DNA from: Gibbula magus
Lineage: Eukaryota; Mollusca; Gastropoda; Trochida; Trochidae
Reading direction: 5' to 3'
Assembly (NCBI GenBank): GCA_936450465.1
Contig: OW388302.1
Coordinates: 18,491,569-18,555,568, forward strand
DNA length: 64,000 nucleotides
A model generated the notes under the pieces. That model saw only the letters and a list, made by a program, of their open reading frames with translations, was not told the origin of the DNA and made no database searches. Shown here in pieces: positions 5,387 to 38,400 of this stretch. Every line of letters starts with the position of its first letter. Position 1 is the first letter of the stretch. Position numbers and translations under genes: made by a program.

Positions 5387-5448
5387 GTACCGGATTCATT
5401 GGAAGAAACTTGGTCCACTACCTTGTTGAAAATGAACTCGTATCGAAG
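5387..5448 (+). CDS. SDR visible exon 1 (TGFIGRN exon)
   Basis: Preceded by a TCTTTCAG acceptor and followed by donor GTTGGT. The first two bases complete a split codon (xGT, probably glycine). The next 20 codons read T-G-F-I-G-R-N and end V-S-K in phase 0. This is the nucleotide-binding glycine-rich turn and the following helix. The 30-bp minisatellite starts 10 nt after the donor. Confidence 0.88.
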
Positions 5449-11400: not shown

Positions 11401-14400
11401 TGAGGTCACAGGGGTCACAACCTTAAAAACCTTTTTTCATCTTCTTCTCCAGTTCCAAATGGTCTAGAGAGCTGAAAAGTTGTGTGCAGACTCCTTGGCC
11501 AATGGGGATTCTAAATTGTAGATTTCGTGACCCCTTGACCCCAAATGGGGTCACAGGGGTCACATCCTTAAAAACCTTTTTTCATCTTCTTCTCCAGTTC
11601 CAAAAAGTCAAGAGAGTTGAATAGTTGTGTGCAGACTCCTTGGTCAATGGGGATTCTAAATTGTAGATTTTGTGACCCCATGACCCTAAATGGGGTCACT
11701 GGGGTCACATCCTTAAAAACCTATTTTCATCTTCTTCTCCAGTTCCAAAAGGTCTAGAGAGCTGAAAAGTTGTGTGCAGACTCCTTGGCCAATGGGGGTT
11801 CTAAATTGTAGATTTCGTGACCCCATGACCCCAAATGGGGTCACAGGGGTCACATCCTTAAAAACCTATTTTTATCTTCTTCTCCAGTTCCAAAAAGTCT
11901 AGAGAGCTGAAAAGTTGTGTGCAGACTCCTTGTCCAATGGGGATTCAAAATTGTAGATTTTGTGACCCTGTGACCCCAATCTAGGTCATGGGTCATGACC
12001 AAAATATTTTCATCTTTATCTTAAGTACGTAAAGCTGTAGAAAGGTGAAATTGTAATTGTAGGATTGGTGACCCTGTGACTCCAAAGTTGGGTCACAGGA
12101 GTCATGGTCTAAAAAACCTATTTTTTTCTTGATAACAATGTATTACTTGATATAACTTAGATAGTCAACCTTAGATAATAATCAATGAAATCTTGATGAG
12201 CTACAGAGCCCATGGCTCTATTTTTCTTTATATTTGTTCCTATTAGGTCCAACTGTTTTGTCCAACTTCCAGCAGCTGGACTATTTATTATCCCCCGACA
12301 CAAAGTGGAAGGGGGATATAGGTTTGGGCTCCGTCCGTCTGTGTGTCCGTCCGTCCGAGATAAAGGGGACAGCTTTTCTCAGAAACCGTTTAACCCTTAA
12401 CTTGCAGGTAGCTGAATTATCCGGGAGGGCTATAAGCAATTCACTGGTGCCTGTATACGGATCCCGGATACACGACTTAGAATAATTCAGGGCCGTCTCT
12501 CACTTTGCAAGCCCTGACAACGGGTCCCGAGTCGATTGTTTCCGTGGGTTGCTCCATGAAAATGGCTGTATTTATGCTCCGCGGCCCGCCATGAGAATAA
12601 AGCTTTGTTCAGTGTCTGGTCGGAATGTCCAGCAAAATTCACACCAATTTGCGAGTGCATTGTTGACTCGTAACGCATCGATAATTAGCTTTACAAAAGG
12701 CCAATTTTCTCAGGCTAAGCCCCGAAGCCTAATTTCGCTTGGGGGTAATTACCACCCATGTGTTTGCATTGCCTCGGGTTTGCCTCGCCCGTACCTGCTA
12801 TCTGCCTCGCATCTAGCGAGACGGGAGAAAAAAATCGCTAACTCGCCTTACTCCCGCACTTCATATCATGTGAGCGAATTGTTTGTTTTCAAAAACAAAT
12901 ACGGCAAAATAAAGGGAAAAGAATGGACTACATTCCCATATAAAATTAGCAAATGTCAAAAAAATAATAAAGACACGGCAAGCGCCGTGGAAAAGGGCAC
13001 TTTTACACTTCGACAATCCCTTTAACAATCGGCGATTTTCACAACTTCTTGCACATTTATCATGGCTAAAATACTGAATGCATTTTCATATTTTTTATAT
13101 CACAATAAACCGAAAAGACTAATCTTTTATTCTATATAAAATGCGCATATTTATTCACAGAAATAAAGATACAACTTTACCTTTCTGAGAGGCATGTGAA
13201 ACCAAACGGCACACAAACTAATCAACATATTTTCATCAGTTAAGGTTCGAGATTAGTGTTTATTTGAAAGGTCAAAAAACATTACCATATTTGGTTTGAC
13301 ATGTGCTTATTTGTCAACTGGTTCGACATTATGATTTCTTGGAAAAGTGCGATAAACGACCGTTTGCAATGCCGCATACATGTTGTAAGGATTTACTATT
13401 TTATAGGTGGAAATAAAGACAAGCTTTAAATAGCTATAAAATTATAACCAAAGGTCGCATTCTAATCATTTTTATATCATTGTGAAGCTAGACATCTTGT
13501 CTTCAATTCCGTATATAAATGGAATTTTTTCGTTTCGTATTTATGATGTTACGAGGCCCGAATTAAAGACAATCTTTCGAAAGTAATAGAATAAAAACGA
13601 AAAATCATAGAAAATTCATTCAAAGTTTCGGGTGTGAATTAGCCATTTGTGTACGGGTTTCGCTACTTGAATTTGTATTGAACGCCCGTATATAGTCCTT
13701 ATTCGCCATGTAGATGCGGTATATTTTGTAAAAACGGTACCGGAATCGCCGCCTGTAAATTCCGCCAGCAGAGCTAGTTAGTGCCAAAGCCCAAACTACT
13801 GCTGGGAGCTGCGAGCCTGAATATTCCGCCACAGGAGCTAAAATTGGTAAAATATATATACGCAACGTAAGGGTTAAGATAGGGTTACCAAATTTGATGA
13901 GTTGCTTGAGGGCTTTGTTTTCGCTAAAATATGTCAAAGGTCAAGGTCGCAGTGAGGTAAAAACTTAAGCATGCTTTTGTGAATATGCCGTATTTTAACT
14001 ATGAACACTTTGAGTCATTGCATGATTCTTATACGCGATGAAAAGTGATCATTGATGGTGTGACCTTGAAGGTCAAAGGTCAAGGTCATGAGATATTGGT
14101 TAAGGCCACGTGTATCCTTTGATCAAATTTTGAAAGAAGAAATAGGTTTTAAGAACAAACTTCTGAAAAGTGACCTCAGTGATGATTAGTAATAACTCGA
14201 ATAATGAACAAACTTTTGTTAAAAAGAATTGCCATTTTATTGATGCTGATGAGAAGGCGGAACAGGGAAAGGCGAGACCCTAAGTTTTGAGCTGCTCTGC
14301 TTTTGCGGTGTCCCGCAAACGCTAATCTAGTTATTCATGCTGTTTAATACTTTTGTAAGAGAAGTCTGAATTTTTGGAAATATTATCCAAAAAGTATTTT

Positions 14401-17400
14401 TGAATTTGGGAGCTTAAACTCTTTTTGGCAATTTGGCAATATCGTTTGGACCTCTGTTGCCACATTTGGTCCTCTGGTGCCCACATTTTATCCTTATCTG
14501 CCACATTTCATCCTCTGTTTTCACAAATTAGTCCCTGGAAACAAATGATGATTGAGTGTTGACAAATGTTGCTTTGTTCCACAGCTATAGCACTAAGACC
14601 CAAAAGCTTCTGTCAAATCTAGACCCCGTTTGGACTCTGTTGCCCAAATTTGCTCCTCTTTTGCCAACATTTTGGTCTTCTGTTGCCCACATATGGTCCT
14701 CTGTTGCCCACATCTGGTTCTCGGTTGCCCACATATGATCCTTTGTTGTCCACTTTTGGTACTCTTTTGCTCACATTTGGTCCTCTGTTGCCCACATTTG
14801 GTCCTCTGTTGCTCACATCTGGTCCTTTGTTGCTCACATTTGGTCCTCTGTTGCCCACATCTGGTCCCTGGTTGCCCACATCTGGTCCTCTGTTGCCCAC
14901 ATCTGGTCCTATTGTCCACATTTGGTCCTCTGTTGTCCACATCTGGTCCTCTGTTGCCCACATCTGGTCCTCTTTTGTCCATATTTGGTCCTCTGTTACC
15001 CACATCTGGTCCTCTGTTGCCCACATCTTGTCCTCTGTTGCCCACATCTGGTCCTCTTTTGCCCACAATTGGTCCTCTGTTCTAAAACCTTAGGACCGTG
15101 GAAAGAAATGTTGCTTGAGTGTTGACAAATGTTGCTTTGTTCCACAGCTGAATATAGCACTTTGAGGGAAAGGCCTCTGAGCTATAGAGACTTGATGTCA
15201 TCGGTTAATGAATTTCAATACTTCATTGTTTCTGTCAAAAAAAACTTTTCAAAGATTAACTAATTATTTTGCTGTCTCATAATTTACCCCAAAAGACTGA
15301 TGAGGAAATGGTGAGATGCTTTTGGTGTTTGTTATGAAACAATCCTGCATGATTCTTCAACGTCTTCTCTGCAACATTGGATTTTGTCTTATTTCATTAG
15401 AGTAGAATTAAGAATTGAGAGTTGTATAATTGCAAAAATGTTTATGATAAAAGATCTATGAGAAATATTTAAAATGTTGACAATGATAGCTGTTTGTCCT
15501 CCATGTGTTGTGTTGTGTTGTCTGTTGTGTGTTGTGTGTTGTGTGTATGTTCAAAACTATTTGTGGTATCATACACAGCACCAATTTTTGATTTGCCAAA
15601 ACCTTTATGTACGGAATGAAATGATAATGTATTCACTTCAATTATTTTATCACTAAATTCTTGGTTTCTTGTTTGCAAATGAATCTATACATTTTGCATT
15701 TGATCAATGTTGAATAATCTGATCAAAATCAAAGCAAATCTTGTTGATCAGATTGAGCATGATTCTTTGTGATCTTTAAGGGCATGACTGCAACAACTTC
15801 CATCTGTAAGACAGAACACGTGTCAGTGTCCACCACTGCCTTGCAGCATTTCCTTAACTCTTCCATGCTAATTGTGGAGTGCTGTATGAATTACATAGTG
15901 GGCTCTGATTCCCTAGCACAGAAACCTTAAGGAACTGCAGCAAGACTTAAATTATTCAGTAATTGACACTGGTGTGTTATGCCTTGAAGAGGGAACTGTT
16001 ATTGCATGAGATAAGTAACAACTTTTTAAATGAAGTGAAAACATAAGTGTCCGCAGTAGTCCGAAAAAGAACAAAATACCAATTGCTGATGAATTTGAAG
16101 CAAGTGTGTTTCTGATGCTATTGCAATGTTCAAAGTTTACTTCCTAAAGTGTCAACTATTCACCCTGGTGCATATCTGACAGTGAAAGCACAAACCCACA
16201 AACCCACAAACTAACAAACCCAAACCTACAAACCCACAAACCCACAAACCCACAAACCCACAAACCCCCACAAACTCACAAACCCAAACCCACAAACCCA
16301 CAAAATCACAAACCCACAAACTCACAAACCCACAAACCCACAAAACCACAAACCCACAAACTCACAAACCCACAAACCCACAAACCCACAAACTCACAAA
16401 CCCACAAACCAACAAACCCACAAACCAACAAACCAACAAACCCAAACCCACAAACTCACAAACCCACAAACCCACAAACTCACAAACTCACAAGGACTTT
16501 GGAAATCTGCACAGATTGCTGCCCTTGTTTCTTCATCTTCATTTGTTAAAAGCGCTATAGCACAATTTTCTTACTGAGATAAAGTGCTCTCACAAAAATA
16601 TAAATAAGTGTTACCAATGGCTAAATAACACTCCTAAATCAATAAAAAGAGTTCTAAAACGAATGTACATTGTTTGATTAAGCCATGCAAGTCCATTTTC
16701 CATCAAGCAGCCATTTTAATTTCTGCTCTAAGAAAGTTTGTCTGAACTCTGGAACTCTCATGAGACCTACAAATCTACCTCTCACACTGAAGAGTTCCAC
16801 ACCACTGTCGCTTAATAAGTTGCACCATAGGATAGCCGTTTTCTTTGGCTTCCAATATTTTGTATTAACTTTGAGAAAATTTGAGAAAACATAACCTGCA
16901 AAAACATGCTACAGCGACTTTAACATGGCTGACTTTGAAACAGTCCTGTTAGCTTTGTTTTACATATTTGTTCATATTATTTTGTGTACAGTTGAATGTT
17001 TTCTCGCCAAGGTAATAAAAGATAAGCTTTCTTCTTGACTGGTGGATTAAAGTTTTCAAAGCAGTTCACTGCAAGCAATGGTTTTCATTCCACCTTTCAC
17101 TTTTTCTGCTCACAATACCATAATTCCGTTTCTATTTACAAGATTAATGTAGAGTTCAATTTTTTGTACACAGAGGGAGAGATTTCCTCAGTGCCCACTT
17201 AGTCGTATAAGACGATTTGGTTCTTGTTGTCTAGAAACCCAACACAGAAGACTGCAAGTGTGAAGCCTGGACGCAGATGGCGAGACAGAAGTTAGAGGTG
17301 GAACGGGAGTTGGAGAATATCCCGGACCTCAACTACATCATCGTTAGACCCGCTGTAGTGTACGGACTGGGGGACAGGAATGGACTCAGTGAGTTGATAC

Positions 17401-20400
17401 AGCTCTTTTACAAGTTGCTCATAAATAAACGTAAAATTATTAAAGGTGCTGTAGTACGCCATTCTTAATGGAATAAAATGCTCTCACAAAAAGATAAATA
17501 AGTGTTACCAATGTGAAAATAATACTCCTGAATCAATGAAAAGAGTTCATCATTAAAGGGGAAGTAGCACGTTTTTTGCCAAATTTATTTTTTCAAATTT
17601 TCCATTTATAATGATAGTTTATGTCATTTAAATTAACTTTAGAGGGTAAAATATCTATTACACAAACCAATTATCTGTAGTGGTAAAAAGTATGTTGCGT
17701 ATAAAGCAAAAATTGCATGGCGGCCATTTTATTGTGAACACAATTTATTATTTTGTACTACATAAACGATTCCCATGGCTTTACCGAAACATGAACACAC
17801 ATTTTAAACTTTGTTTTCCGAAGAGAGAAGGATGCTTTACTATTTGGGAACTTATTTTTCAAATACATTTCATCAACTTATTTGAGCGAAAAAACGTGCT
17901 ACTGCCGCTTTAAAAGGGTCACTCGAAGGTAGTTCAAGTGATCTGACTGATGTAGTGATACCTAAACAGAGGAGAGTTCTATTTATGATACAATGGTGGA
18001 ATGGTCAACCATCTTCCTGATTGAAGTCTCAAAATCGAATTAGACATGCAAATCTATCTCTCACACTGATGACTCTAATAAAATTATGCTTTATACGTCG
18101 TACCATTTTCTTCCAATATGGATAACCTTTTTATCCCACTTATCCCACCGGTATGTAATACCGTGGGATATAGTCATCACCCCGGCCGTCTGTCCGTCCG
18201 TCCGTCTGTCCGTCCGTAATCATTTCGTTTCCGGAGCAGAACTTGAAAACCATTCATGATATCTTTCTGAAACTTTGCATGTTTATTACCCACTAACTGA
18301 AGTGGTGCCTTTTGATATTTTCAGGTTTCTGAAAATTTTATTTTTCGTTGTTTCCATAGAAACATGTTGAATTTGGACTTTGTCCAGAGACAGGCTCGTT
18401 TCCGGAGCACAGCTCCAAAACCGTTCATCATATCTTCCTGAAACTTTCCATGTGTATTACCCACTAACTGAAGTGGTGCCTTTTGATATTTTCAGATTTT
18501 TTCTGAAAAATTATTTTTTTTCTGTTTCCATAGAAACATGAGAGGGATGTTGGTTGTTGTTGATTTTGACTGCTTCTGGAGCAGAAGTCTAAAACTTTTA
18601 ACATACCTGAAACTTAGCATCTGTAATATCCACTAACTGAAGTACTGTAGTAGATACACAAATATCTGTCAAAGATGTGTTTTACAAATTTTGTGGAACC
18701 GGTGGGATATGTCATCTTCTGATGACTCTTGTTCTATTGACACATTGGGTCGTGTAATGAGATGTTTTACCCTCTAACATATAATATATGAAAATTAATA
18801 ATAAATGGTAAATTTGAAAAAAAATAATACAGTGTCAGGGTTCCTATGTTCTGAAATCATCTCCTCCAACAGAAATCTTTCTGAAACTTAACACTTGCTT
18901 TTAATATACATTAGTGATACGCATGTGCTTTGTTCGGGCAAACTGGATCAGCATTTTCAGAGTTCTGGAACTTGACTTTGAAGGCTTGGCTTTCCTATTT
19001 GTTATGGACACTACTTGTGTTCTGAAATCTATTCCTCCCATAGTTTGTTATTAATCTTTCTGAAATTGTTCAAGAGATTTTAATATACATCAGTCCACAG
19101 GTTCTTTTTCAATTCAGACCGAGGATTAAACTTTAACCTACGAGGGGCGTTCAATAAGTGTTGCAAGCGGGGCATTGGTGTTTACATAAACAGTGTCACC
19201 TTATAGCAGGTGTTACTATAGTCAAAACATAACATTGACACATGTCAAAACAATTTCTAGACATAACAATTATTTAGATATAATAACTGCGCTGTCCTAG
19301 GGGTCTCCATAATCATAGATTCTCTCAAACATGAACAACGCGCTGTGATCAAGTTCCTTACTAAAGAGGGATGCAAAGCTACAGAAATACATAAACGTAT
19401 GTGTAATGTGATGGGTAAGGATGCTCCTAACTTTTCAACAGTTTGTCGCTGGTCTCTTCAGTTCAAGCGGGGCAGGGAGTCCTTAGACGATGACCCACGG
19501 TCAGGCAGGCAATCTGAAGTCACCCGACCGGAAGTTATTGCCGCTATCGAAAGACGAATTTTAGCTGACCGCCGTGTTAAAGTTTCTGAACTGTCTTTGG
19601 AATTCCAGATATCAGTTGGAAGTGTTGAAAAAATAATTCATGACCATCTTGGTATGTCCAAGGTATCTGCAAGATGGGTACCCAGAAACCTCACAGCACA
19701 AGATCACCAGAAAAGACCCGAAAGTTGCATGGAGCTCCTGGATCGGTTTAATGCGGATGAAGCCAGGTTTTTGTCTCGTCTGGTGACAGGTGACGAAACC
19801 TGGATCCAGCACTGGGACCCGGAAACTAAACTGGAATCCAAGCAATGGAAGCACCCGAAGTTTCGCACTCAACCATCAGCTGGCAAGGTTATGGCGACAA
19901 TCTTTTGGGATGCAAAAGACATATTATTAATTGATTACTTGCCAACCAAAACTACAATGAATGGTCAATATTATGCCACACTAATGCAAAAATTGCGAAA
20001 GACAATTCGACAGAAACGCCGTGGAATGTTGACACGTGGTGTTCTGATTTTGCATGACAACGCTCCAGTCCACAAGTCAAGAGTTGCACAGGCCTCTTTA
20101 CGTGATTGTGGATTCGAACAGCTTAACCACCCACCCTACAGCCCAGACCTAGCCCCCAGTGACTACTTCCTGTTCAGCTGCCACAGAGGCGTGGTTAGGG
20201 GGGCAAACGGAAGACTTCTACAAAAGCGGCATCAAAAGTCTTAAAAGAGAAATGGAATAAGTGTATTGAGGTGAAGGGTAACTATATTGAAAAATAAAAG
20301 TAAAAAATTGACTACGCAAGTTGGTTTTATATTGAAGTTGCAACACTTATTGAACGCCCCTCGTATCATGGCTCTTACTTTTCATTGGTCAATAATATAA

Positions 20401-23400
20401 TTTTCTTTGAAACTTCATATATGTGTTTCCCTTGACATAAGACCATTTAAATAAAGTCGTATTCTTTGACTTTCTAAACTTGACGCAATTTCTCAAATTT
20501 TAACCTTGACTTTGAATTTGTCAGCAAAGACCATGACCAAACCAGACCAGACCTTGTTTCCCATGTCACATACTGAGGTCATAACATTTGACCTTGTGAT
20601 ATTGGTGCAGATGAATCGCAGGGTATGCAGGGTATACAAGTTTCAGCTCAGTTTCATCCGCCAGTTGACGCTAGCCATGTTTGTTGCAGCTCCCAGACTG
20701 ATCATAGGAGCCATCTACAAGTACATGAAGGAGAAGATGAAGGTAGGCTCCCCACGTCCAGCTCCAGTTCACTTTCCTCTCATACAAGCCTCCAGTAGTT
20801 CCACTCACTTATCACTTCCACCAAAGCTCCCAACTGATAACCAATTTAGTTAGCAACCTCTACGAATCAAAAGCCTTTTGTGTAAGAAAAGTTTCAAGCA
20901 ACACAGTTGTTTCCTTCTTCTTTTCATTAACCCCCACCGCGTGTTTAGATAAAGTATTTGGGTGTGTCCGTATGAAAAGGAATAACTCAAATACTATTCA
21001 CTGGATTCTTTTCAATTTTTGCATATGGGTTCATCATAGGACAGTAATTTTCCTACAGAGTTTTGTGACCTTGACCTTTATTTCAAGGTCACAACAAGGC
21101 TTTGTCATTTTACCCTTGTCAGCGGGATATCTCAAGAACCATTCACCAGAATTTCATCATATCTTACACAAAGCACCTCCTAGAGAAGACAAAGGGCTGA
21201 TTAGCTTTTTGTGACCTTGACATTATTCTCAAGGTCACAGTGGAACTTTGAAGTTTTCGACATGATAATGTACATGTAAAGCTTGTCAGCGCAATAGCTC
21301 AAGAACCATTCACTGGAATGTAGTCATATCTTATACAAAGCACCTCCTAGTGAAGACAAGGGGCTGATTAGATATTTGTGACCTTGACTATTCTCATTGA
21401 GTTTGTCGACATGTTAAGCTTGTCAAGGGAAATGATATCACAAGAACTGTACATTTGATTCTCATCATTATCTTACACCAATGGTTCTTTTAGGGAAGAT
21501 TCAAGGCCAAGTTGATTTTGTTTCTCTTGACATTATTTTTCAATTTTGAAGTATTAATTTGCAGCGGTGGATCATGTCACCTTAGTACTGATCTTGTTGA
21601 TGGGATCTGATTGGTTATTTAGAGAGAAATGTGGTAGCTTCTGTAGGCATTTCATATTGATTCAAGACAGACTGAATATAAATGATGTACCAATGTTCAT
21701 GTACAGATGCTATGGACAAAGGACTTGAAGATGAACACAATCCATGTTGAGGACGTGTGTGCGGCCGTGTGGAAACTGTGTCAGAGCGGGAAGAGAGGAC
21801 ATGTGTACAATCTCGTGGACAGGGGCGATACCAGTGAGTTACTGACATTTGATACCAGATTGACAGGGGCGATACCAGTGAGTTACTGACATTTGATACC
21901 AGATTGACAGGGGCGATACCAGTGAGTTACTGACATTTGATACCAGATCGACAGGGGCGATACCAGTGAGTTACTGACATTAGATACCAGATTGACAGGG
22001 GTGATACCAGTGAGTTACTGACATTTGATACCAGATCGACAGGGGCGATACCAGTGAGTTACTGACATTTGATACCAGATCGACAGGGGCGATACCAGTG
22101 AGTTACTGACATTTGATACCAGATCGACAGGGGCGATACCAGTGAGTTACTGACATTTGATACCAGATTGACAGGGGCGATACCAGTGAGTTACTGACAT
22201 TTGATACCAGATCGACAGGGGCGATACCAGTGAGTTACTGACATTAGATACCAGATTGACAGGGGTGATACCAGTGAGTTACTGACATTTGATACCAGAT
22301 CGACAGGGGCGATACCAGTGAGTTACTGACATTTGATACCAGATCGACAGGGGCGATACCAGTGAGTTACTGACATTTGATACCAGATCGACAGGGGCGA
22401 TACCAGTGAGTTACTGACATTTGATACCAGATTGACAGGGGCGATACCAGTGAGTTACTGACATTTGATACCAGATTGACAGGGGCGATACCAGTGAGTT
22501 ACTGACATTTGATACCAGATCGACAGGGGCGATACCAGTGAGTTACTGACATTAGATACCAGATTGACAGGGGTGATACCAGTGAGTTACTGACATTTGA
22601 TACCAGATCGACAGGGGCGATACCAGTGAGTTACTGACATTTGATACCAGATTGACAGGGGCGATACAAGTGAGTTACTGACATTAGATACCAGATTGAC
22701 AGGGGCGATACCAGTGAGTTACTGACATTTGGTACCAGATCGACAGGGGCGATACCAGTGAGTTACTGACATTTGATACCAGATCGACAGGGGTGATACC
22801 AGTGAGTTACTGACATTTGATACCAGATTCACAGGGGTGATACCAGTGAGTTACTGACATTAGATACCAGATTGACAGGGGCGATACAAGTGAGTTACTG
22901 ACATTTGATACCAGATTGACAGTGGTGATACCAGTGAGTTACTGACATTAGATACCAGATTGACAGTGGTGATACCAGTGAGTTACTGACATTTGATACC
23001 AGATCGACAGGGGCGATACCAGTGAGTTACTGACATTTGATACCAGTTTGAAAGGGGCGATACAAGTGAGTTACTGACATTAGATACCAGATTGACAGGG
23101 GCGATACCAGTGAGTTACTGACATTTGGTACCAGATCGACAGGGGCGATACCAGTGAGTTACTGACATTAGATACCAGATCGACAGGGGCGATACCAGTG
23201 AGTTACTGACATTTGATACCAGATTGACAGGGGCGATACCAGTGAGTTACTGACATTTGATACCAGATCGACAGGGGCGATACCAGTGAGTTACTGACAT
23301 TAGATACCAGATTGACAGGGGTGATACCAGTGAGTTACTGACATTTGATACCAGATCGACAGGGGCGATACCAGTGAGTTACTGACATTAGATACCAGAT

Positions 23401-26400
23401 TGACAGGGGTGATACCAGTGAGTTACTGACATTTGATACCAGATCGACAGGGGCGATACCAGTGAGTTACTGACATTTGATACCAGATCGACAGGGGCGA
23501 TACCAGTGAGTTACTGACATTTGATACCAGATCGACAGGGGCGATACCAGTGAGTTACTGACATTAGATACCAGATTGACAGGGGTGATACCAGTGAGTT
23601 ACTGACATTAGATACCAGATCGACAGGGGCGATACCAGTGAGTTACTGACATTAGATACCAGATTGACAGGGGCGATACCAGTGAGTTACTGACATTTGA
23701 TACCAGATCGACAGGGGTGATACCAGTGAGTTACTGACATTTGATACCAGATCGACAGGGGCGATACCAGTGAGTTACTGACATTTGATACCAGATTGAC
23801 AGGGGCGATACAAGTGAGTTACTGACATTAGATACCAGATTGACAGGGGCGATACCAGTGAGTTACTGACATTAGATACCAGATTGACAGGGGTGATACC
23901 AGTGAGTTACTGACATTAGATACCAGATCGACAGGGGCGATACCAGTGAGTTACTGACATTTGATACCAGATTGACAGGGGAGATACCAGTGAGTTACTG
24001 ACATTAGATACCAGATTGACAGGGGCGATACAAGTGAGTTACTGACATTTGATACCAGATTGACAGTGGTGATACCAGTGAGTTACTGACATTAGATACC
24101 AGATTGACAGTGGTGATACCAGTGAGTTACTGACATTTGATACCAGATCGACAGGGGCGATACCAGTGAGTTACTGACATTTGATACCAGATTGACAGGG
24201 GCGATACAAGTGAGTTACTGACATTAGATACCAGATTGACAGGGGCGATACCAGTGAGTTACTGACATTTGGTACCAGATCGACAGGGGCGATACCAGTG
24301 AGTTACTGACATTTGATACCAGATCGACAGGGGTGATACCAGTGAGTTACTGACATTTGATACCAGATTGACAGGGGTGATACCAGTGAGTTACTGACAT
24401 TAGATACCAGATTGACAGGGGCGATACAAGTGAGTTACTGACATTTGATACCAGATTGACAGTGGTGATACCAGTGAGTTACTGACATTAGATACCAGAT
24501 TGACAGTGGTGATACCAGTGAGTTACTGACATTTGATACCAGATCGACAGGGGCGATACCAGTGAGTTACTGACATTTGATACCAGTTTGAAAGGGGCGA
24601 TACAAGTGAGTTACTGACATTAGATACCAGATTGACAGGGGCGATACCAGTGAGTTACTGACATTTGGTACCAGATCGACAGGGGCGATACCAGTGAGTT
24701 ACTGACATTAGATACCAGATCGACAGGGGCGATACCAGTGAGTTACTGACATTTGATACCAGATTGACAGGGGCGATACCAGTGAGTTACTGACATTTGA
24801 TACCAGATCGACAGGGGCGATACCAGTGAGTTACTGACATTAGATACCAGATTGACAGGGGTGATACCAGTGAGTTACTGACATTTGATACCAGATCGAC
24901 AGGGGCGATACCAGTGAGTTACTGACATTTGATACCAGATCGACAGGGGCGATACCAGTGAGTTACTGACATTTGATACCAGATCGACAGGGGCGATACC
25001 AGTGAGTTACTGACATTAGATACCAGATTGACAGGGGTGATACCAGTGAGTTACTGACATTAGATACCAGATCGACAGGGGCGATACCAGTGAGTTACTG
25101 ACATTAGATACCAGATTGACAGGGGCGATACCAGTGAGTTACTGACATTTGATACCAGATCGACAGGGGTGATACCAGTGAGTTACTGACATTTGATACC
25201 AGATCGACAGGGGCGATACCAGTGAGTTACTGACATTTGATACCAGATTGACAGGGGCGATACAAGTGAGTTACTGACATTAGATACCAGATTGACAGGG
25301 GCGATACCAGTGAGTTACTGACATTAGATACCAGATTGACAGGGGTGATACCAGTGAGTTACTGACATTAGATGCCAGATCGACAGGGGCGATACCAGTG
25401 AGTTACTGACATTTGATACCAGATTGACAGGGGAGATACCAGTGAGTTACTGACATTAGATACCAGATTGACAGGGGCGATACAAGTGAGTTACTGACAT
25501 TTGATACCAGATTGACAGTGGTGATACCAGTGAGTTACTGACATTAGATACCAGATTGACAGTGGTGATACCAGTGAGTTACTGACATTTGATACCAGAT
25601 CGACAGGGGCGATACCAGTGAGTTACTGACATTTGATACCAGATTGACAGGGGCGATACAAGTGAGTTACTGACATTAGATACCAGATTGACAGGGGCGA
25701 TACCAGTGAGTTACTGACATTTGGTACCAGATCGACAGGGGCGATACCAGTGAGTTACTGACATTTGATACCAGATCGACAGGGGTGATACCAGTGAGTT
25801 ACTGACATTTGATACCAGATTGACAGGGGTGATACCAGTGAGTTACTGACATTAGATACCAGATTGACAGGGGCGATACAAGTGAGTTACTGACATTTGA
25901 TACCAGATTGACAGTGGTGATACCAGTGAGTTACTGACATTAGATACCAGATTGACAGTGGTGATACCAGTGAGTTACTGACATTTGATACCAGATCGAC
26001 AGGGGCGATACCAGTGAGTTACTGACATTTGATACCAGTTTGAAAGGGGCGATACAAGTGAGTTACTGACATTAGATACCAGATTGACAGGGGCGATACC
26101 AGTGAGTTACTGACATTTGGTACCAGATCGACAGGGGCGATACCAGTGAGTTACTGACATTAGATACCAGATTGACAGGGGCGATACAAGTGAGTTACTG
26201 ACATTTGATACCAGATTGACAGTGGTGATACCAGTGAGTTACTGACATTAGATACCAGATTGACAGTGGTGATACCAGTGAGTTACTGACATTTGATACC
26301 AGATCGACAGGGGCGATACCAGTGAGTTACTGACATTAGATACCAGATTGACAGGGGCGATACAAGTGAGTTACTGACATTTGATACCAGATCGACAGGG

Positions 26401-29400
26401 GCGATACCAGTGAGTTACTGACATTTGATACCAGATCGACAGGGGCGATACCAGTGAGTTACTGACATTAGATACCAGATTGACAGGGGCGATACCAGTG
26501 AGTTACTGACATTAGATACCAGATTGACAGGGGCGATACCAATGAGTTACTGACATTTGATACCAGATTGACAGGGGCGATACCAGTGAGTTACTGACAT
26601 TAGATACCAGATCGACAGGGGTGATACCAGTGAGTTACTGACATTAGATACCAGATCGACAGGGGCGATACCAGTGAGTTACTGACATTAGATACCAGAT
26701 CGACAGGGGTGATACCAGTGAGTTACTGACATTTGCTACCAGATCGACAGGGGCGATACCAGTGAGTTACTGACATTTGATACCAGATCGACAGGGGTGA
26801 TACCAGTGAGTTACTGACATTTGATACCAGATCGACAGGGGTGATACCAGTGAGTTACTGACATTTGATACCAGATTGACAGGGGCGATACCAGTGAGTT
26901 ACTGACATTTGATACCAGATCGACAGGGGTGATACCAGTGAGTTACTGACATTTGATACCAGATCGACAGGGGCGATACCAGTGAGTTACTGACATTAGA
27001 TACCAGATTGACAGGGGCGATACCAATGAGTTACTGACATTTGATACCAGATTGACAGGGGCGATACCAATGAGTTACTGACATTTGATACCAGATCGAC
27101 AGGGGTGATACCAGTGAGTTACTGACATTTGATACCAGATCGACAGGGGCGATACCAGTGAGTTACTGACATTAGATACCAGATTGACAGGGGCGATACC
27201 AGTGAGTTACTGACATTTGATACCAGATTGACAGGGGCGATACCAGTGAGTTACTGACATTTGATACCAGATTGACAGGGGCAATACCAGTGAGTTACTG
27301 ACATTTGATACCAGATCGACAGGGGTGATACCAGTGAGTTACTGACATTTGGTACCAGATTGACAGGGGCGATACCAGTGAGTTACTGACATTTGATACC
27401 AGATCGACAGGGGTGATACCAGTGAGTTACTGACATTTGATACCAGATTGACAGGGGCGATACCAGTGAGTTACTGACATTTGATACCAGATCGACAGGG
27501 GTGATACCAATGAGTTACTGACATTTGATACCAGATCGACAGGGGCGATACCAGTGAGTTACTGACATTAGATACCAGATTGACAGGGGCGATACCAATG
27601 AGTTACTGACATTTGATACCAGATTGACAGGGGCGATACCAGTGAGTTACTGACATTTGATACCAGATTGACAGGGGCGATACCAGTGAGTTACTGACAT
27701 TTGATACCAGATTGACAGGGGCGATACCAGTGAGTTACTGACATTTGATACCAGATCGACAGGGGTGATACCAGTGAGTTACTGACATTAGATACCAGAT
27801 TGACAGGGGCGATACCAATGAGTTGCTGACATTTGATACCAGATTGACAGGGGCGATACCAATGAGTTACTGACATTTGATACCAGATCGACAGGGGTGA
27901 TACCAGTGAGTTACTGACATTTGATACCAGATTGACAGGGGCGATACAAGTGAGTTACTGACATTAGATACCAGATTGACAGGGGTGATACCAGTGAGTT
28001 ACTGACATTTGATACCAGATTGACAGGGGTGATACCAGTGAGTTACTGACATTTGATACCAGAATGACAGTGGTGATACCAGTGAGTTACTGACATTTGA
28101 TACCAGATTGACAGGGGCGATACCAGTGAGTTACTGACATTAGATACCAGATTGACAGGGGCGATACCAGTGAGTTACTGACATTAGATACCAGATTGAC
28201 AGGGGCGATACCAGTGAGTTACTGACATTAGATACCAGATTGACAGGGGCGATACCAGTGAGTTACTGACATTTGATACCAGATTGACAGGGGCGATACC
28301 AGTGAGTTACTGACATTTGATACCAGATCGACAGGGGTGATACCAGTGAGTTACTGACATTTGATACCAGATTGACAGGGGTGATACCAGTGAGTTACTG
28401 ACATTTGATACCAGATTGACAGGGGTGATACCAGTGAGTTACTGACATTTGACACCATATTGACAGGGGCGATACCAGTGAATTACTGACATTTGTTACC
28501 AGATTGACAGGGGCGATACCAGTGAGTTACTGACATTTGATACCAGATTGACAGTGGCCATACCAGTGAGTTACTGACATTTGGTACCAGATTGACAGGG
28601 GTGTTACCAGTGAGTTACTGACATTTGACACCAGATTGACAGTGGTGATACCAGTGAGTTACTGACATTTGATACCAGATTGACAGGGGCGATACCAGTG
28701 AGTTACTGACATTAGATACCAGATTGACAGGGGCGATACCAGTGAGTTACTGACATTAGATACCAGATTGACAGGGGCGATACCAGTGAGTTACTGACAT
28801 TAGATACCAGATTGACAGGGGCGATACCAGTGAGTTACTGACATTTGATACCAGATTGACAGGGGCGATACCAGTGAGTTACTGACATTTGATACCAGAT
28901 TGACAGGGGCGATACCAGTTAGTTACTGACATTTGATACCAGATTGACAGGGGTGATACCAGTGAGTTACTGACATTTGATACCAGATTGACAGGGGTGA
29001 TACCAGTGAGTTACTGACATTTGACACCATATTGACAGGGGCGATACCAGTGAATTACTGACATTTGTTACCAGATTGACAGGGGCGATACCAGTGAGTT
29101 ACTGACATTTGATACCAGATTGACAGTGGCCATACCAGTGAGTTACTGACATTTGGTACCAGATTGACAGGGGTGTTACCAGTGAGTTACTGACATTTGA
29201 CACCAGATTGACAGGGGCGATACCAATGAGTTACTGACATTTGGTACCAGATTGACAGGGGTGTTACCAGTGAGTTACTGACATTTGATACCAGATTGAC
29301 AGGGGCGATACCAGTGAGTTACTGACATTAGATACCAGATTGACAGGGGTGATACCAGTGAGTTACTGACATTTGGTACCAGATTGACAGCAACGATAGC

Positions 29401-32400
29401 AGTGAGTTACTGACATTTGATACCAGATTGACAGGGGCGATACCAGTGAGTTACTGACATTTGGTACAAGATTGATAGGGGCGATACCAGTGAGTTACTG
29501 ACATTAGATACCAGATTGACAGGGGCGATACCAGTGAGTTACTGACATTTGATACCAGATTGACAGGGGCGATACCAGTGAGTTACTGACATTTGATACC
29601 AGATTGACAGGGGCGATACCAGTGAGTTACTGACATTAGATACCAGATTGACAGGGGCGATACCAGTGAGTTACTGACATTAGATACCAGATTGACAGGG
29701 GCGATACCAGTGAGTTACTGACATTAGATACCAGATTGACAGGGGCGATACCAGTGAGTTACTGACATTTGATACCAGATTGACAGGGGCGATACCAGTG
29801 AGTTACTGACATTTGATACCAGATTGACAGGGGCGATACCAGTGAGTTACTGACATTTGATACCAGATTGACAGGGGTGATACCAGTGAGTTACTGACAT
29901 TTGATACCAGATTGACAGGGGTGATACCAGTGAGTTACTGACATTTGACACCATATTGACAGGGGCGATACCAGTGAATTACTGACATTTGTTACCAGAT
30001 TGACAGGGGCGATACCAGTGAGTTACTGACATTTGATACCAGATTGACAGTGGCCATACCAGTGAGTTACTGACATTTGGTACCAGATTGACAGGGGTGT
30101 TACCAGTGAGTTACTGACATTTGACACCAGATTGACAGGGGCGATACCAATGAGTTACTGACATTTGGTACCAGATTGACAGGGGTGTTACCAGTGAGTT
30201 ACTGACATTTGATACCAGATTGACAGGGGCGATACCAGTGAGTTACTGACATTAGATACCAGATTGACAGGGGTGATACCAGTGAGTTACTGACATTTGG
30301 TACCAGATTGACAGCAACGATAGCAGTGAGTTACTGACATTTGATACCAGATTGACAGGGGCGATACCAGTGAGTTACTGACATTTGGTACAAGATTGAT
30401 AGGGGCGATACCAGTGAGTTACTGACATTAGATACCAGATTGACAGGGGCGATACCAGTGAGTTACTGACATTTGATACCAGATTGACAGGGGCGATACC
30501 AGTGAGTTACTGACATTTGATACCAGATTGACAGGGGCGATACCAGTGAGTTACTGACATTTGATACCAGATTGACAGGGGTGATACCAGTGAGTTACTG
30601 ACATTTGATACCAGATTGACAGGGGTGATACCAGTGAGTTACTGACATTTGACACCATATTGACAGGGGCGATACCAGTGAATTACTGACATTTGTTACC
30701 AGATTGACAGGGGCGATACCAGTGAGTTACTGACATTTGATACCAGATTGACAGTGGCCATACCAGTGAGTTACTGACATTTGGTACCAGATTGACAGGG
30801 GTGTTACCAGTGAGTTACTGACATTTGACACCAGATTGACAGGGGCGATACCAATGAGTTACTGACATTTGGTACCAGATTGACAGGGGTGTTACCAGTG
30901 AGTTACTGACATTTGATACCAGATTGACAGGGGCGATACCAGTGAGTTACTGACATTAGATACCAGATTGACAGGGGTGATACCAGTGAGTTACTGACAT
31001 TTGGTACCAGATTGACAGCAACGATAGCAGTGAGTTACTGACATTTGATACCAGATTGACAGGGGCGATACCAGTGAGTTACTGACATTTGGTACAAGAT
31101 TGATAGGGGTGTTTCCAGTGAGTTACTGACATTTGATACCAGATTGACAGGGGCGATACCAGTGAGTTACTGACATTTGACACCAGATTGACAGGGGCGA
31201 TACCAATGAGTTACTGACATTTGATACCAGATTGACAGGGGCGATACCAGTGAGTTACTGACATTTGATACCAGATTGACAGGGGCGATACCAGTGAGTT
31301 ACTGACATTTGGTACAAGATCGACAGGGGCGATACCAGTGAGTTACTGACATTTGATACCAGATTGACAGGGGCGATACCAGTGAGTTACTGACATTTGG
31401 TACAAGATTGATAGGGGTGTTTCCAGTGAGTTACTGACATTTGATACCAGATTGACAGGGGCGATACCAGTGAGTTACTGACATTTGGTACCAGATTGAC
31501 AGGGGCGATACCAGTGAGTTACTGACATTAGATACCAGATTGACAGGGGCGATACCAGTGAGTTACTGACATTTGATACCAGATTGACAGGGGCGATACC
31601 AATGAGTTACTGACATTTGATACCAGATTGACAGGGGCGATACCAGTGAGTTACTGACATTTGATACCAGATTGACAGGGGCGATACCAGTGAGTTACTG
31701 ACATTTGGTACCAGATTGACAGGGGTGATACCAGTGAGTTACTGACATTTGGTACCAGATTGACAGGGGCGATACCAGTGAGTTACTGACATTAGATACC
31801 AGATTGACAGGGGCGATACCAGTGAGTTACTGACATTAGATACCAGATTGACAGGGGCGATACCAATGAGTTACTGACATTTGATACCAGATTGACAGGG
31901 GCGATACCAGTGAGTTACTGACATTTGATACCAGATTGACAGGGGCGATACCAGTGAGTTACTGACATTTGACACCAGATTGACAGGGGCTATACCAATG
32001 AGTTACTGACATTTGATACCAGATTGACAGGGGCGATACCAATGAGTTACTGACATTTGATACCAGATTGACAGGGGTGATACCAGTGAGTTACTGACAT
32101 TTGATACCAGATTGACAGGGGCGATACCAATGAGTTACTGACATTTGATACCAGATTGACAGGGGCGATACCAGTGAGTTACTGACATTTGATACCAGAT
32201 TGACAGGGGCGATACCAGTGAGTTACTGACATTTGACACCAGATTGACAGGGGCTATACCAATGAGTTACTGACATTTGATACCAGATTGACAGGGGTGA
32301 TACCAATGAGTTACTGACATTTGATACCAGATTGACAGGGGCGATACCAATGAGTTACTGACATTTGATACCAGATTGACAGGGGCGATACCAGTGAGTT

Positions 32401-35400
32401 ACTGACATTTGGTACCAGATTGACAGGGGCGATACCAGTGAGTTACTGACATTTGATACCAGATTGACAGGGGTGTTACCAGTGAGTTACTGACATTTGA
32501 TACCAGATTGACAGGGGCGATACCAGTGAGTTACTGACATTTGGTACCAGATCGACAGGGGCGATACCAGTGAGTTACTGACATTTGATACCAGATCGAC
32601 AGGGGCGATACCAGTGAGTTACTGACATTAGATACCAGATTGACAGGGGCGATACCAGTGAGTTACTGACATTTGGTACCAGATTGACAGGGGCGATACC
32701 AGTGAGTTACTGACATTTGATACCAGATTGACAGGGGTGTTACCAGTGAGTTACTGACATTTGATACCAGATTGACAGGGGCGATACCAGTGAGTTACTG
32801 ACATTTGATACCAGATCGACAGGGGCGATACCAGTGAGTTACTGACATTTGATACCAGATCGACAGGGGCGATACCAGTGAGTTACTGACATTAGATACC
32901 AGATTGACAGGGGTGATACCAGTGAGTTACTGACATTTGATACCAGATTGACAGGGGTGATACCAGTGAGTTACTGACATTTGACACCAGATTGACAGGG
33001 GTGATACCAGTGAGTTACTGACATTAGATACCAGATTGACAGGGGTGATACCAGTGAGTTACTGACATTAGATACCAGATCGACAGGGGCGATACCAGTG
33101 AATTACTGACATTTGTTACCAGATCGACAGGGGCGATACCAGTGAGTTACTGATATTTGATACCAGATTGACAGGGGCGATACCAGTGAGTTACTGACAT
33201 TTGATACCAGATCGACAGGGGTGATACCAGTGAGTTACTGACATTAGATACCAGATTGACAAGGGCGATACAAGTGACTTCATCACAATTGATACTAGAA
33301 TGACAGTGATATTTGATATATTGTTATTTGATATATTGTTATTTGATGCCTGATGAATAGTGGGGCAGTAGGGAGTTATAACGATTTGATATTGCTGATA
33401 GGTGATTTAAACAATATTTATTCATGGAAATTGATTGGATTGGTAAACAGACATATAACGCCTATGTAAATACGTCTTCAATACAAAAGAATATATAACA
33501 CAATATCCCTTCATCAATGCTGAGGAACATACAGCATTTGATAACATAATTGTAATATCGGTAGTATGATATTAATTATATCATCAAATTAGAAAGGAAA
33601 TTAATTAAGAGAAACGTTTAGTTTGGGTAAAATACTAATGCAATGAAGTGAAGAAAATGACTTATTTCCATATAAAATCGATTGTAAACCAAAACCATGC
33701 TCTTAGAAGAAACATCTTGACCGGACTTTGACAAAATTTGGACATATAAAGAGATAATGAATGGCATCCTGATAGTGATAGCCACAGTTGAAGTATTTTG
33801 AAGGAAACGGTCAAATTTATTGTCATTTAGGTCACTACAACCCAGTCTCATCTTACAATGGATAATTTGATTGCGTCTTGTGCCCGCGTTTTTAATAATA
33901 TGATGTACCGGTACATTCCAAGATAAAGTTCAGTCGACACGTTTCTTAAATGTAGGAAGAGATAATGCTTATAGGGATGATGTCAGTCCCAGAGATTTTT
34001 TATACAAAGCTTTCAGTAATAATTATACATAAACTAGAGTTAAGTCCTCATATTTCGTCCAGTCCTCATATTTCGTCCACTTTTCAAAAAAGGCGAATTT
34101 ACAGCCTGGCCTACCCTCAAATCGTTGTCTCGTTTGTTATTTTTCTTACTAAGAATAGCAGTCAATCGATATTAGTCACATGATACATACAGCATTGTTG
34201 AATGGTTGATACAACATGACGAAGCTGTTATGTCACGACCTTCCCGCCAGGGAGACTTGAAAACGACAAAAACAGGTGGACGAAATTATAATACAGTGTC
34301 GCCAATGCTTAAATCTGTGTGGACGAAATTACGAGATTGGTGGACCAAATAACACGACGCATACCCTTGCTTTTAAGCTATTTTATTCATTAGAGTTACC
34401 CCCCTTAGAATATCAGCCAATCATTTTTCTTATAACAAAGACTCTTTGCCTCGGGTGATTATTGACCAAGAAGTGCCGAGTGAAGCCAGTGAGGGTTAGA
34501 ATGTCGGCAAGCGAGGTCACCGTAAAAGTGGACGAAATATGAGGACTATACTCTATACATTGGTACTCAGCACTTATTGTCTCTCTTGCAGCACAAGGGA
34601 AGATCAGCGAACTAATATCTGAGATATTTGACATCAACTTCGACTTTGTGGGCTCTGTCATGTCAAACGTGGCTAAGGTCAGTCCCGCATCCGTTTTCTT
34701 GGAACAGTTGCAGCCATAAGATAAATATTGTCAATTTGATTGTACATGTGAGCATATTCAACTTAAAAACAACCAAGTTTGAATAAACAAATCTTAGGTA
34801 TAATCAACCTTTTTCTAAAATGATTGCATTGTGAAACAGATTGAATTTATACTATTTTCAATACTTATGTTTATTTTTAAAATTTTAATTTAATGTTTTA
34901 TTTATTTAAATGATGTATTTCTGCATTTTATAAACAGTGACGTAATGTTTTAATGTGGTTTATATTAATTTGAAACAAAAAACAGGCAAGCGCTTAAAAC
35001 CCTCATTGGGAAGGAAAACCCCCCTTTTTCCTAGGGATGTGCAATATTATCGATATACCGGTATATATCAGTACAAAGTGTGTATTGCAATAATTGCATT
35101 TGATTTGTGATATCGCAATATATCGCACCAATGCATTTCAAGTAAAATTAAGTTTAAAATCTTGCTTTAAGGCACAGACACATGGTTTAATTCTCCAAAA
35201 AATGTTTGATGTGCAGAAATATGTGTTGGATAAATGATGGGAGACATTTTTTTATGTAAATATCATTAGAATTTGCTTACATATTTACCTTATAACTTGT
35301 TGTATATAGTTTGTTAGATCTGAAAGGCATTTTATCAAATATTTCGTATTTAAATCGCATAATGATGTATAAAAGCTTAATGGAGAAATCATTCAATATA

Positions 35401-38400
35401 TCGCAGTATTATTGCAATATGTGTGCTGTATATCGCAATATATCGCAATATGAATTTTGCCACAATATCCAGCCTTACTTTTTCCTAAAACCCTTATTTC
35501 CACTAAAACCCTAAAACCCTCATTGCCACTAAAACCCTAAAACCCTCATTGCCACTCCAGGGTAATACTCTGTATAAGTCGGAACCAGGTTCATGCTTCA
35601 CCCAAGGTGCAATAGGTTATGTATCTGTTATCCAAACCGGGGATGTAGCGCAGTTGGTAGAGCGTCCGCTCATCACCCGGGAGGTCAGGGTACGATTCCT
35701 GGCCGCGTCATACCAAAAGACGTTAAAAGATGGGAGTTGTTGCTTCCTTGCTTGGCGCTCAGCATTTAGAGGGTAGAACAACGATTGAACTGGCGCTGCA
35801 CTGTGGCTGTCGGGTGCCAAGGGCACAACAAGAATTTCCGATTTCGTTGTAATGAGGACAATAAAGTGTTATTATTATTATTATTATATTATTCCTTGTC
35901 CATTTTGGAAGTTGCTCAAAAACAGTATAATCCACCTCGTCGATGATTAACAAATAGTCATGAAGATTGGATCAGCAGCTATCTATAGGTCGCTGGTCCA
36001 GTGAGAGAGGGGCTTCCAAGTACACACTGAAATTATCTCTTTTTATCATGAAATAGCACAAAATATTTTACAATTTTTAGTACAAACATTCACTCTGGAT
36101 TAAGATTCACTTTTCCTTGGCTGCAAAGTTAAAATTGAGAAAGAAAACATCAATATTTTGTAGTGGTCTACAGTTTTCTCTCCAGAGTTACCTCCTCCTG
36201 GTCATGTGACCTACAAGTTGTTTTCATATAATAATTTCCTGTTTTCAATTTGATCTTCTGTTTCCTCCCTCCAGCTGAACATGAGTAATGTAGTCGAGGA
36301 CATCAACGACAAACACATGGCTCCCTGGGCGGACGCCTGCCAGCGCGATAAGATAGTCAACACCCCCCTCAATCCCTTCATAGATCAGGTACAGTATATA
36401 TGTGTCTTCTGTGCAAGAATTTGTCAAATGTGGAATATAAAGTGCAGCACTGACAACAACTTCTGGAAAAATTTAGTTTCAACCTTACGTTATGTAAGAG
36501 ATATTTGGTGTTGGTAGACACTGTAAGTCTATCACACCCAGATAACGAAGATTGTTTAACCCTGCAATGTCTCATCTCCAGGAACTGTTATACAACAAGC
36601 ACCTGTTTCTGGACGCTGGCAGGCTGGAGGAACTGAACTTCTCCTGGAAGTACCCCTCGCTTTCTGTCGCGACGCTTCGAGAGGTATGTGATAGTCTCTA
36701 GATATTCTCAATGTCTGCTCTAGCTTTCCGTGGAGACGCCTCAAGAGGTCAGAGATAGTCTCTATATATTCTCAATGTTTTCTCTAGCTGTCTGAAATTC
36801 ACTGGTACACATACCTGAGGCCCCTTACACAAAGAAGCCTTTAGTTAGTTAAGCGTAACTTCCATTATTTAAAATTGCACTATGGTAACCAGTCTTTGTG
36901 TTCAAGAAAAAAATATGTGTGGATATGAATGCATTTTCCCCGACAGAATTCCAATATTTAAATTCTTCCTTATGAGGGTCGTTGTATTTAGACATTGATG
37001 TTAACTTGCGGCTCCCGGGATCGTCCGGGATGGCCATAAACAATTCCTGTAACCCGTACCGGGTCCCGGTTACTAGATTAAGAATTTAAATCGGCTGTCT
37101 ACCAGGGAGCTAGCCCTCCCTTCAATCTGCGAGTCGAGTTGTCTCTGGGAGTCGCTCCATGAGAAGATCTGTATTATGCCTCGCAGTTCGGCACGATAAC
37201 GAGTCTGTGTCAATGTCCGGTCGAAATGTCCAGCAAAAATCACACCAAATTGCGTATTCATTGTTGACCCGTAACGCATTGTTAATTAGCTTTACACAAG
37301 GCCAATTTTGTTGGGCTTCGCCCCAAAGGCTAATCTCCCTGGGGCTAATTATCACCCACATGTTTGCATTTCCCCTGGCAAAAAGGCCGTACATACTATC
37401 TGCCTCAAAGTGTCCCTATTACGGGAACATAAATTGATAACCTGCCTTACTCGCGCACTTCATATCATGTGAACCAATTGGTTGTTTTCAAAACTTTTTA
37501 TGCCAAAAAAACGGGGAAAGAATAGCCTACAATCCCACAAATGTCAAAAAATAATAGACACAAAGGTCAGGTTTACACTTCATAAATTTTTAAACAATCA
37601 GCGCTTTTCACAACTTCTTGCACAAAGCTTGAGCTCCCTGTCATGCATTTTCATAATTTTATATCACAATAAACCAAATAGAATAATCTTTTATTCTATA
37701 TAAAATGCGCATATTTACTCACAGAAATAAAAATACAACTTTACCCTTTTGAGAGGCATGTAAAGCCAAACGATACTCAAACTAATCAACATATTTACAT
37801 AAGATATGGTTCGAGGTAAGCATTTATTGGAAAGGTCAAACAACATGACCATATTTGGGTTGACATGTGCTTATTTGTCAATTGGTTCGAGATTATAATT
37901 TCTTGGATTTCTTGCAATGCCACATAAATGTTGTAAGTATTTACGATTTTATAGGTGGAAATAAAGACAAACTTTACATAGCTATAGAATTATAACCAAA
38001 GATCGCATTCTGATAATTTTTATATCATTGTGAAGCCAAACATCTTGTCTTCAATTCCGTATATAAATTGAATTTTTTCGTTTCATATTTATGATATTAT
38101 GAGGCCTGAATTAAAGACAATCTTTCGAAAATAATAGAATAAAAACAAAAAATCGTAGAAAATTCATTCAAAGTCACGGGTATGAATTAACCGTTTGTGT
38201 ACGGGTGCCGCGACTTGAATTTGTATTGAACGGCCGTATATAGTCCATTTCCGCGATGTAGATGCAATATATTTCGTAAAACAGTACGAGAATCGCCATC
38301 TGGAATATTCCGCCAGCAGAGCTTATTAGTGCCTAAGCCAAAATACTGCTGCGAGCTGGTGGGTCTGTAAATTCCGCCACGGGGGCTAAAAATGGGTAAA

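Follow-up and report, generated by a model that had tools for sequence, protein, structure and literature searches.

A minisatellite of 261 units spanning a predicted exon-intron junction of an SDR-like gene in the mollusc Gibbula magus

The gene and the array it carries

The stretch of DNA analysed here, 64,000 nt of the gastropod Gibbula magus (contig OW388302.1, positions 18,491,569 to 18,555,568; called the window below, and the source of all plain coordinates), contains an SDR-like gene in which the end of one coding exon and the beginning of the intron that follows it are repeated together in a tandem array of 261 units. Twelve coding exons, running from 5389 to 39258 with AG/GT borders and compatible phases, join into a single open frame of 373 aa that ends in a stop codon. 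The gene and its array are made up as follows.

5389..39258, + strand: extended SDR / NAD-dependent epimerase-like gene, 12 coding exons found
5389-5448, +: coding exon, given from its first whole codon
7163-7219, +: coding exon
8273-8327, +: coding exon
9528-9619, +: coding exon
10254-10367, +: coding exon
17235-17388, +: coding exon
20690-20742, +: coding exon
21707-21833, +: coding exon, the eighth of the 12 found, encoding MLWTKDLKMNTIHVEDV...NLVDRGDT, with its last 16 nt in the repeat unit
21834..34591, +: array-bearing intron of 12,758 nt, 11,468 nt of them array
21818..33301, +: junction-spanning array, 261 x 44 bp, 242/261 units with GT
21834..21839, +: authentic donor GTGAGT in unit 1, as placed by homology and phase
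33258..33306, +: diverged last unit followed by GACAG, likely the 3' end of the ancestral 44-bp stretch
34592-34677, +: next coding exon, T-QGKISELISEIFDINFDFVGSVMSNVAK
36275-36388, +: coding exon
36582-36683, +: coding exon
39151-39258, +: coding exon

The predicted protein matches the Pfam family Epimerase (PF01370, E 2.2e-23) and, among the best 120 of 733 matches, its best homologue is a "dTDP-glucose 4,6-dehydratase-like" protein of Haliotis cracherodii, with 82% identity over 97%; no solved structure matched it at E 0.001. When the Haliotis protein was compared with the whole genome (1.47 Gb, 140 contigs) eight matches were returned at E 0.001, all of them in the array locus, in a kind of search that short exons can escape. 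The exon at 21707-21833, numbered 8 in the initial annotation made from the letters of the window, is indeed the eighth of the twelve found, a rank that may not be its true number as no exon with a start codon was found within the 64-kb window. It is 127 nt long, with the acceptor ...tacag/ATG and the donor CCA/gtgagt, and is flanked by introns of 964 and 12,758 nt; the exon that follows at 34592 is preceded by ...cttgcag, and a threonine codon (A/CA) is split across 21833/34592. That the gene is intact, with its phases kept and this codon divided between the two exons, had been claimed before, and the open frame over twelve exons bears it out: as predicted from its sequence, the SDR-like gene is intact in reading frame around the array.

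Tandem Repeats Finder (TRF) delimits a 44-bp tandem array at 21818-33306 (261.1 copies, 94% matches, 0% indels), and a count of units in register over 21818-33301 gives 261 units, every one of 44 bp, which fall into 48 distinct sequences. This count upholds the earlier description of the unit as the last 16 nt of the coding exon (21818-21833) followed by the first 28 nt of its intron. The earlier estimate of about 260 copies at 21707..33280 stands for the size of the array and not for its limits, 21707 being the start of the exon and the last unit running on for 21 nt past 33280. Nearly every unit was said to carry a donor, and a GT is present at donor positions +1/+2 in 242 of the 261, the other 19 having AT; the exact CCAGTGAGT occurs in 216/261 units, unit 1 included. 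Unit 1, which carries the authentic junction, is identical to the array consensus, whereas the last unit (261) differs from it at 9/44 positions, with the preceding 20-unit bins averaging 0.9-2.0 differences. Directly after the last unit stands GACAG, the pentanucleotide with which the repeat unit begins. Within the 44-bp consensus unit (21818-21861) GATACCAG is present twice, once in the exon tail and once in the intron part (shuffle p 0.001), which hints, suggestively only, at an older duplication inside the unit. An array of such length and fidelity is far beyond what chance can account for.

The array seems to supply donors and no acceptors, because no AG with at least 11 pyrimidines in the 16 upstream positions is seen within it, compared with nine in the remaining 1.3 kb of the intron; the threshold is a crude one, which 6/12 of the gene's own acceptors fail, and acceptors in the array that would give microexons are therefore only weakly rejected. 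Expansion of the coding sequence is out, as 44 is no multiple of 3 and none of the three frames read from the array start stays open past 21887, inside the first two units.

It had been proposed that an alignment of homologues would tell whether the exon end is ancestral and exonic at all. In an alignment of 26 rows (25 chosen homologues, from molluscs to Hydra, and the query) the exon tail encodes DRGDT, part of the block VDRGDTTQG, in which all rows share the first D and the closing QG, G is present in 19/26 rows, D in 17/26, T in 23/26 and the next T in 22/26. The R is unique to the query among the 26 rows, K being usual. The conservation of the block supports the exon end being ancestral coding sequence. 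The repeat unit is found at the array locus only: a 31-base core of it, when at most 3 mismatches are allowed, has 255 forward and 0 reverse occurrences in the 1.47-Gb genome, and 255 in the window, where units beyond 3 mismatches (6/261 here) escape the count; the genome-wide figure is reported as whole, under a general caution that counts are lower bounds. An unrelated satellite inserted beside the exon is therefore out, the unit having been found only at this locus and its exon part being conserved coding sequence.

Elsewhere in the gene, a 30-bp x 53 array at 5460-7036 starts 11 nt past the donor that follows the exon at 5389-5448, and excludes the donor itself. The intron preceding the exon at 20690 contains an open frame of 325 codons (19267-20244), which we take to resemble a mariner-type transposase.

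Choice among the repeated donors

The 260 units downstream of unit 1 include all 19 that are without GT, and the 241 that keep it are each predicted, if used as donor, to lead to a premature stop, which falls in the extension for 240 of them and in the downstream exons for one (unit 2). Premature stops well before the last junction trigger nonsense-mediated decay, and because all of the decoy stops lie at least 278 nt ahead of the last exon junction the decoy transcripts are expected to decay. Unit 1 would then be the only productive choice of donor. The first 107 units in a row all have GT and all 19 losses fall within units 108-240, which looks like one change that has spread through turnover of the array. 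The variability of donor positions +1 to +6 is not significantly below that of six positions drawn at random from the unit (one-sided p 0.39 for variant copies and 0.34 for distinct alleles), and detectable purifying selection on the donor sites is rejected on these values. Since variability at the donor is not reduced and the nearest units keep their GT, nothing shows that decoys are kept for use, nor that near decoys have been selected away.

The reading we favour, with a probability of roughly three in four, is that the array is a minisatellite born of an exon-intron junction, an extreme case of the repeats named "mirages" in amphioxus, and that it is tolerated thanks to exon definition, in which a donor is favoured by closeness to the acceptor of its exon. 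The word GACAG stands both in the exon and at intron +29, and the 44-bp stretch that these two copies delimit would have been duplicated by slippage or by microhomology-mediated repair; the array would then have grown, homogenised by unequal exchange or replication slippage, and may persist since splicing still mostly uses unit 1. Under exon definition the donor nearest the exon's own acceptor should win among donors of equal strength, and such a preference is described for exons flanked by long introns, on the basis of human data and of minigenes whose donors are equal (PMC9225289). Unit 1 would be favoured by this proximity rule because the exon, of 127 nt, lies between the 964-nt and 12,758-nt introns. 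A minor ladder of transcripts longer by +44n nt, steepest over the first few units, would be expected alongside the normal product and would be removed by nonsense-mediated decay.

Several points weigh against this reading. The near decoys have not been disabled, GT being intact in the first 107 units, so that any discrimination among donors must be positional. The use of unit 1 is something we infer, the array is known from one assembly, and its single-copy ancestor in relatives is likewise supposed. The proximity rule rests on human data and on minigenes in which two sites compete rather than hundreds, and classical in vitro work, as described in the same source, favours the intron-proximal donor (PMC9225289), a preference by which the last GT unit would be chosen here. 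Furthermore, two downstream repeat units are reported to be used as donors in the human gene IFI6 (PMC4526556).

The alternative that survives best, improbable as we hold it to be, is that the decoys are used often, in which case more units would mean more frameshifted and degraded transcripts and less protein. It would fit the match between decoys and authentic donor (exact CCAGTGAGT in the majority of units), the premature stop predicted for all 241 GT-keeping decoys and the use of downstream repeat units as donors in IFI6 (PMC4526556), but donor positions give no sign of being kept, amphioxus mirages are reported to leave splicing intact (PMC3087553, PMC3902484), and exon definition disfavours far decoys (PMC9225289).

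The turnover of the array bears on whether it is real. Of the unit pairs 33 apart 18.9% are identical, where the median for lags 1-130 is 6.1%, and the longest exact repeat at unit lags inside the array is 798 nt, which is the pattern that block duplication in a live minisatellite gives. This pattern argues against simple assembly duplication, whilst the exact copy number may be off. A false expansion of the array during assembly is thus very unlikely in our view: long tandem arrays are error-prone, exact repeats as long as 798 nt are present, and one amphioxus mirage looked aberrantly assembled in a draft genome (PMC3087553), but the 48 unit types follow an order that is not trivial, exact repeats at unit lags do not exceed that length, 261 units contain 0 indels, and the array lies within a 70.8-Mb contig.

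We give even less credence to growth of the array in a dead gene. An 11.5-kb array at a splice site might be thought to destroy the gene, and its start-codon exon was not found in the window, but the frame is open over 12 exons with AG/GT borders and matching phases, the protein has kept 82% identity to that of Haliotis, and no other genomic copy matched. Least probable of all is a selected function in which the 242 donors sequester the U1 small nuclear ribonucleoprotein (snRNP), a titration raised in the initial annotation, or shield the long intron from premature polyadenylation, for although the array has 20.5 GTRAGT sites per kb, compared with 0.31 in the remainder of the gene, and both AATAAA and ATTAAA are absent from it, the donor positions are not significantly less variable (p 0.39, 0.34) and GT is lost in 19/261 units, the missing poly(A) signals follow from the repetition of one unit, and it is not plausible that one locus could titrate so abundant an snRNP.

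Other junction-spanning repeats in the genome

The array had been called unusual, and a reading of it as a lone oddity is not supported, since junctions are also repeated at another donor of the SDR-like gene and in two further genes met in 200 kb sampled from the genome, and since the class already has a name in amphioxus. The three further cases are these.

36659..36786, +: tandem duplication across a second donor of the SDR-like gene, 64 bp x 2, 53/64 identical
G000:C14:1500775-1501955, minus strand: array L010, 95 bp x 12.5 (about 12 units), repeating an exon end and its GTGAGC donor
G000:C14:9500787-9501457: array L018, 63 bp x 10.9, repeating the acceptor TTGTTACCAG and an exon start, with the authentic copy last

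The 64-bp duplication straddles the donor at 36683/36684, with 25 nt of exon tail and 39 nt of intron. In a test of local similarity at the 11 donors and 12 acceptors of the gene, 2/11 donors and 0/12 acceptors stood out, each of the two donors with 0/300 shuffles; no further splice site of the gene fell below p 0.05, the nearest being two acceptors at 0.06 and 0.09. The sample consisted of 20 stretches of 10 kb, 200 kb in total, from the first 20 Mb of the 70.8-Mb contig that carries the array (C14). Tandem arrays occupy 37.8 of the 200 kb, so long arrays are ordinary in this genome. Two of the 24 arrays in the sample (period at least 20, at least 4 copies) span a junction, one on the donor side and one on the acceptor side, in a survey made by eye over 131 edge-straddling frames, window included, and in a small sample. 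The exon of the donor-side array, L010, matches residues 40-90 of a PDB entry homologous to VPS72 (8qr1_S, E 5.4e-7), and its match to Pfam YL1, at 0.012, is below the Pfam cut-off; that of the acceptor-side array, L018, matches Peptidase_M14 (E 4.2e-12), the M14 zinc carboxypeptidases. The borders of both exons were read from the sequence.

A 100 bp x 54 array at C14:1507211-1512612, minus strand (L010/L037), comes after an open frame and carries a GTAAGT site in its repeats, and is possibly donor-spanning; three homology searches gave no convincing match and the candidate is not confirmed. The motif GTRAGT is present in the unit of 4/35 arrays (24 from the sample and 11 from the window; period at least 20, at least 4 copies), against 2.3 after shuffling (p 0.17), an enrichment that is not significant and so does not establish that arrays in this genome derive broadly from donors. 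A broader suggestion, which we put forward tentatively and with some doubt, is that the genome routinely makes splice-junction minisatellites, at donors and acceptors alike and with as many as hundreds of units, so that many genes would be spliced correctly amid near-identical competing sites; the 261-unit case would show in nature how far exon definition can be stretched, and expression may be tuned by allele length by way of a decayed ladder of decoys.

Two observations lie apart from the splice junctions. A 75-bp x 50 array at 52892-56640 of the window (98% matches) has a unit open in several frames, one minus-strand frame running to 1332 aa. At G000:C8:12129157-12256449 there are eight matches to AMP-binding (PF00501) with unbroken frames of 544-562 aa within 130 kb (8/14 scored).

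To our knowledge, the choice of donor among equal sites has mostly been studied with two or a few competitors. Here one natural intron holds 242 near-identical donors at an exact spacing of 44 nt after a conserved exon, of which only the first is predicted to be productive, and RNA from this gene would read out donor choice against distance from the acceptor. An 11.5-kb junction array that leaves the frame unbroken is also relevant to models of how introns grow and are gained.

Relation to known systems

The human gene IFI6 (6-16, G1P3) reportedly has a minisatellite with multiple splice donor sites, described by Turri et al. in 1995. As in the array of G. magus, the minisatellite lies at an exon end and has donors in its repeat units; two downstream units of IFI6 serve as donors (PMC4526556) and give isoforms, unlike here, where extension to any other GT unit predicts a premature stop. 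Genes in human segmental duplications are reported to have internal tandem repeats at exon-intron boundaries, on average about 4 units of 30 bp, for which a role in the formation of introns was proposed (PMC2812944); these too are tandem repeats that change exon-intron borders, whereas in G. magus the predicted protein is unchanged.

Among molluscs, intron 3 of an abalone TSSK1-like gene contains a length-polymorphic 27-bp minisatellite, for which a figure legend mentions 62 repeats (PMC6905558). It is likewise a large intronic minisatellite in a mollusc gene, one that varies between individuals, and the available text does not state whether exon sequence or a splice site is part of the repeat. 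For introns of Conus, the available text mentions simple repeats only (PMC3862624), and no junction-spanning minisatellite in a mollusc turned up in our searches of the open-licence literature.

The closest likeness is to the amphioxus minisatellites that span splice junctions and were named "mirages" (PMC3087553), with cases in BflGb6 and Adh3, to which the genes TnC and PGBD5 were later added (PMC3902484), and which are reported to leave normal splicing undisturbed (PMC3087553, PMC3902484). As in those, the tandem unit in G. magus holds exon and intron sequence across a junction, here one placed by homology and phase, with the splice signal in many but not all units (GT in 242/261). Concerted evolution with a diverged edge unit is a further likeness: matches reach 94%, a diverged unit is set apart at the 3' edge only, and unit 1 at the 5' edge equals the consensus. 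Several genes in one genome are involved, on donor and acceptor sides, namely the SDR-like gene, the VPS72-like gene (donor) and the M14 gene (acceptor). The differences are those of scale and of lineage, as the amphioxus BflGb6 mirage has 6 and 3 units in two haplotypes and the PGBD5 case is 3 x 108 bp (PMC3087553, PMC3902484), against 261 units here, in a mollusc and not a lancelet. With this array, minisatellites derived from junctions are known from a mollusc as well as from amphioxus, and one as long as 11.5 kb can be carried by a gene whose reading frame stays unbroken. From the published descriptions of mirages, the array is a further case of this known kind; what is new is its size, at 261 units, and the phylum in which it is found.

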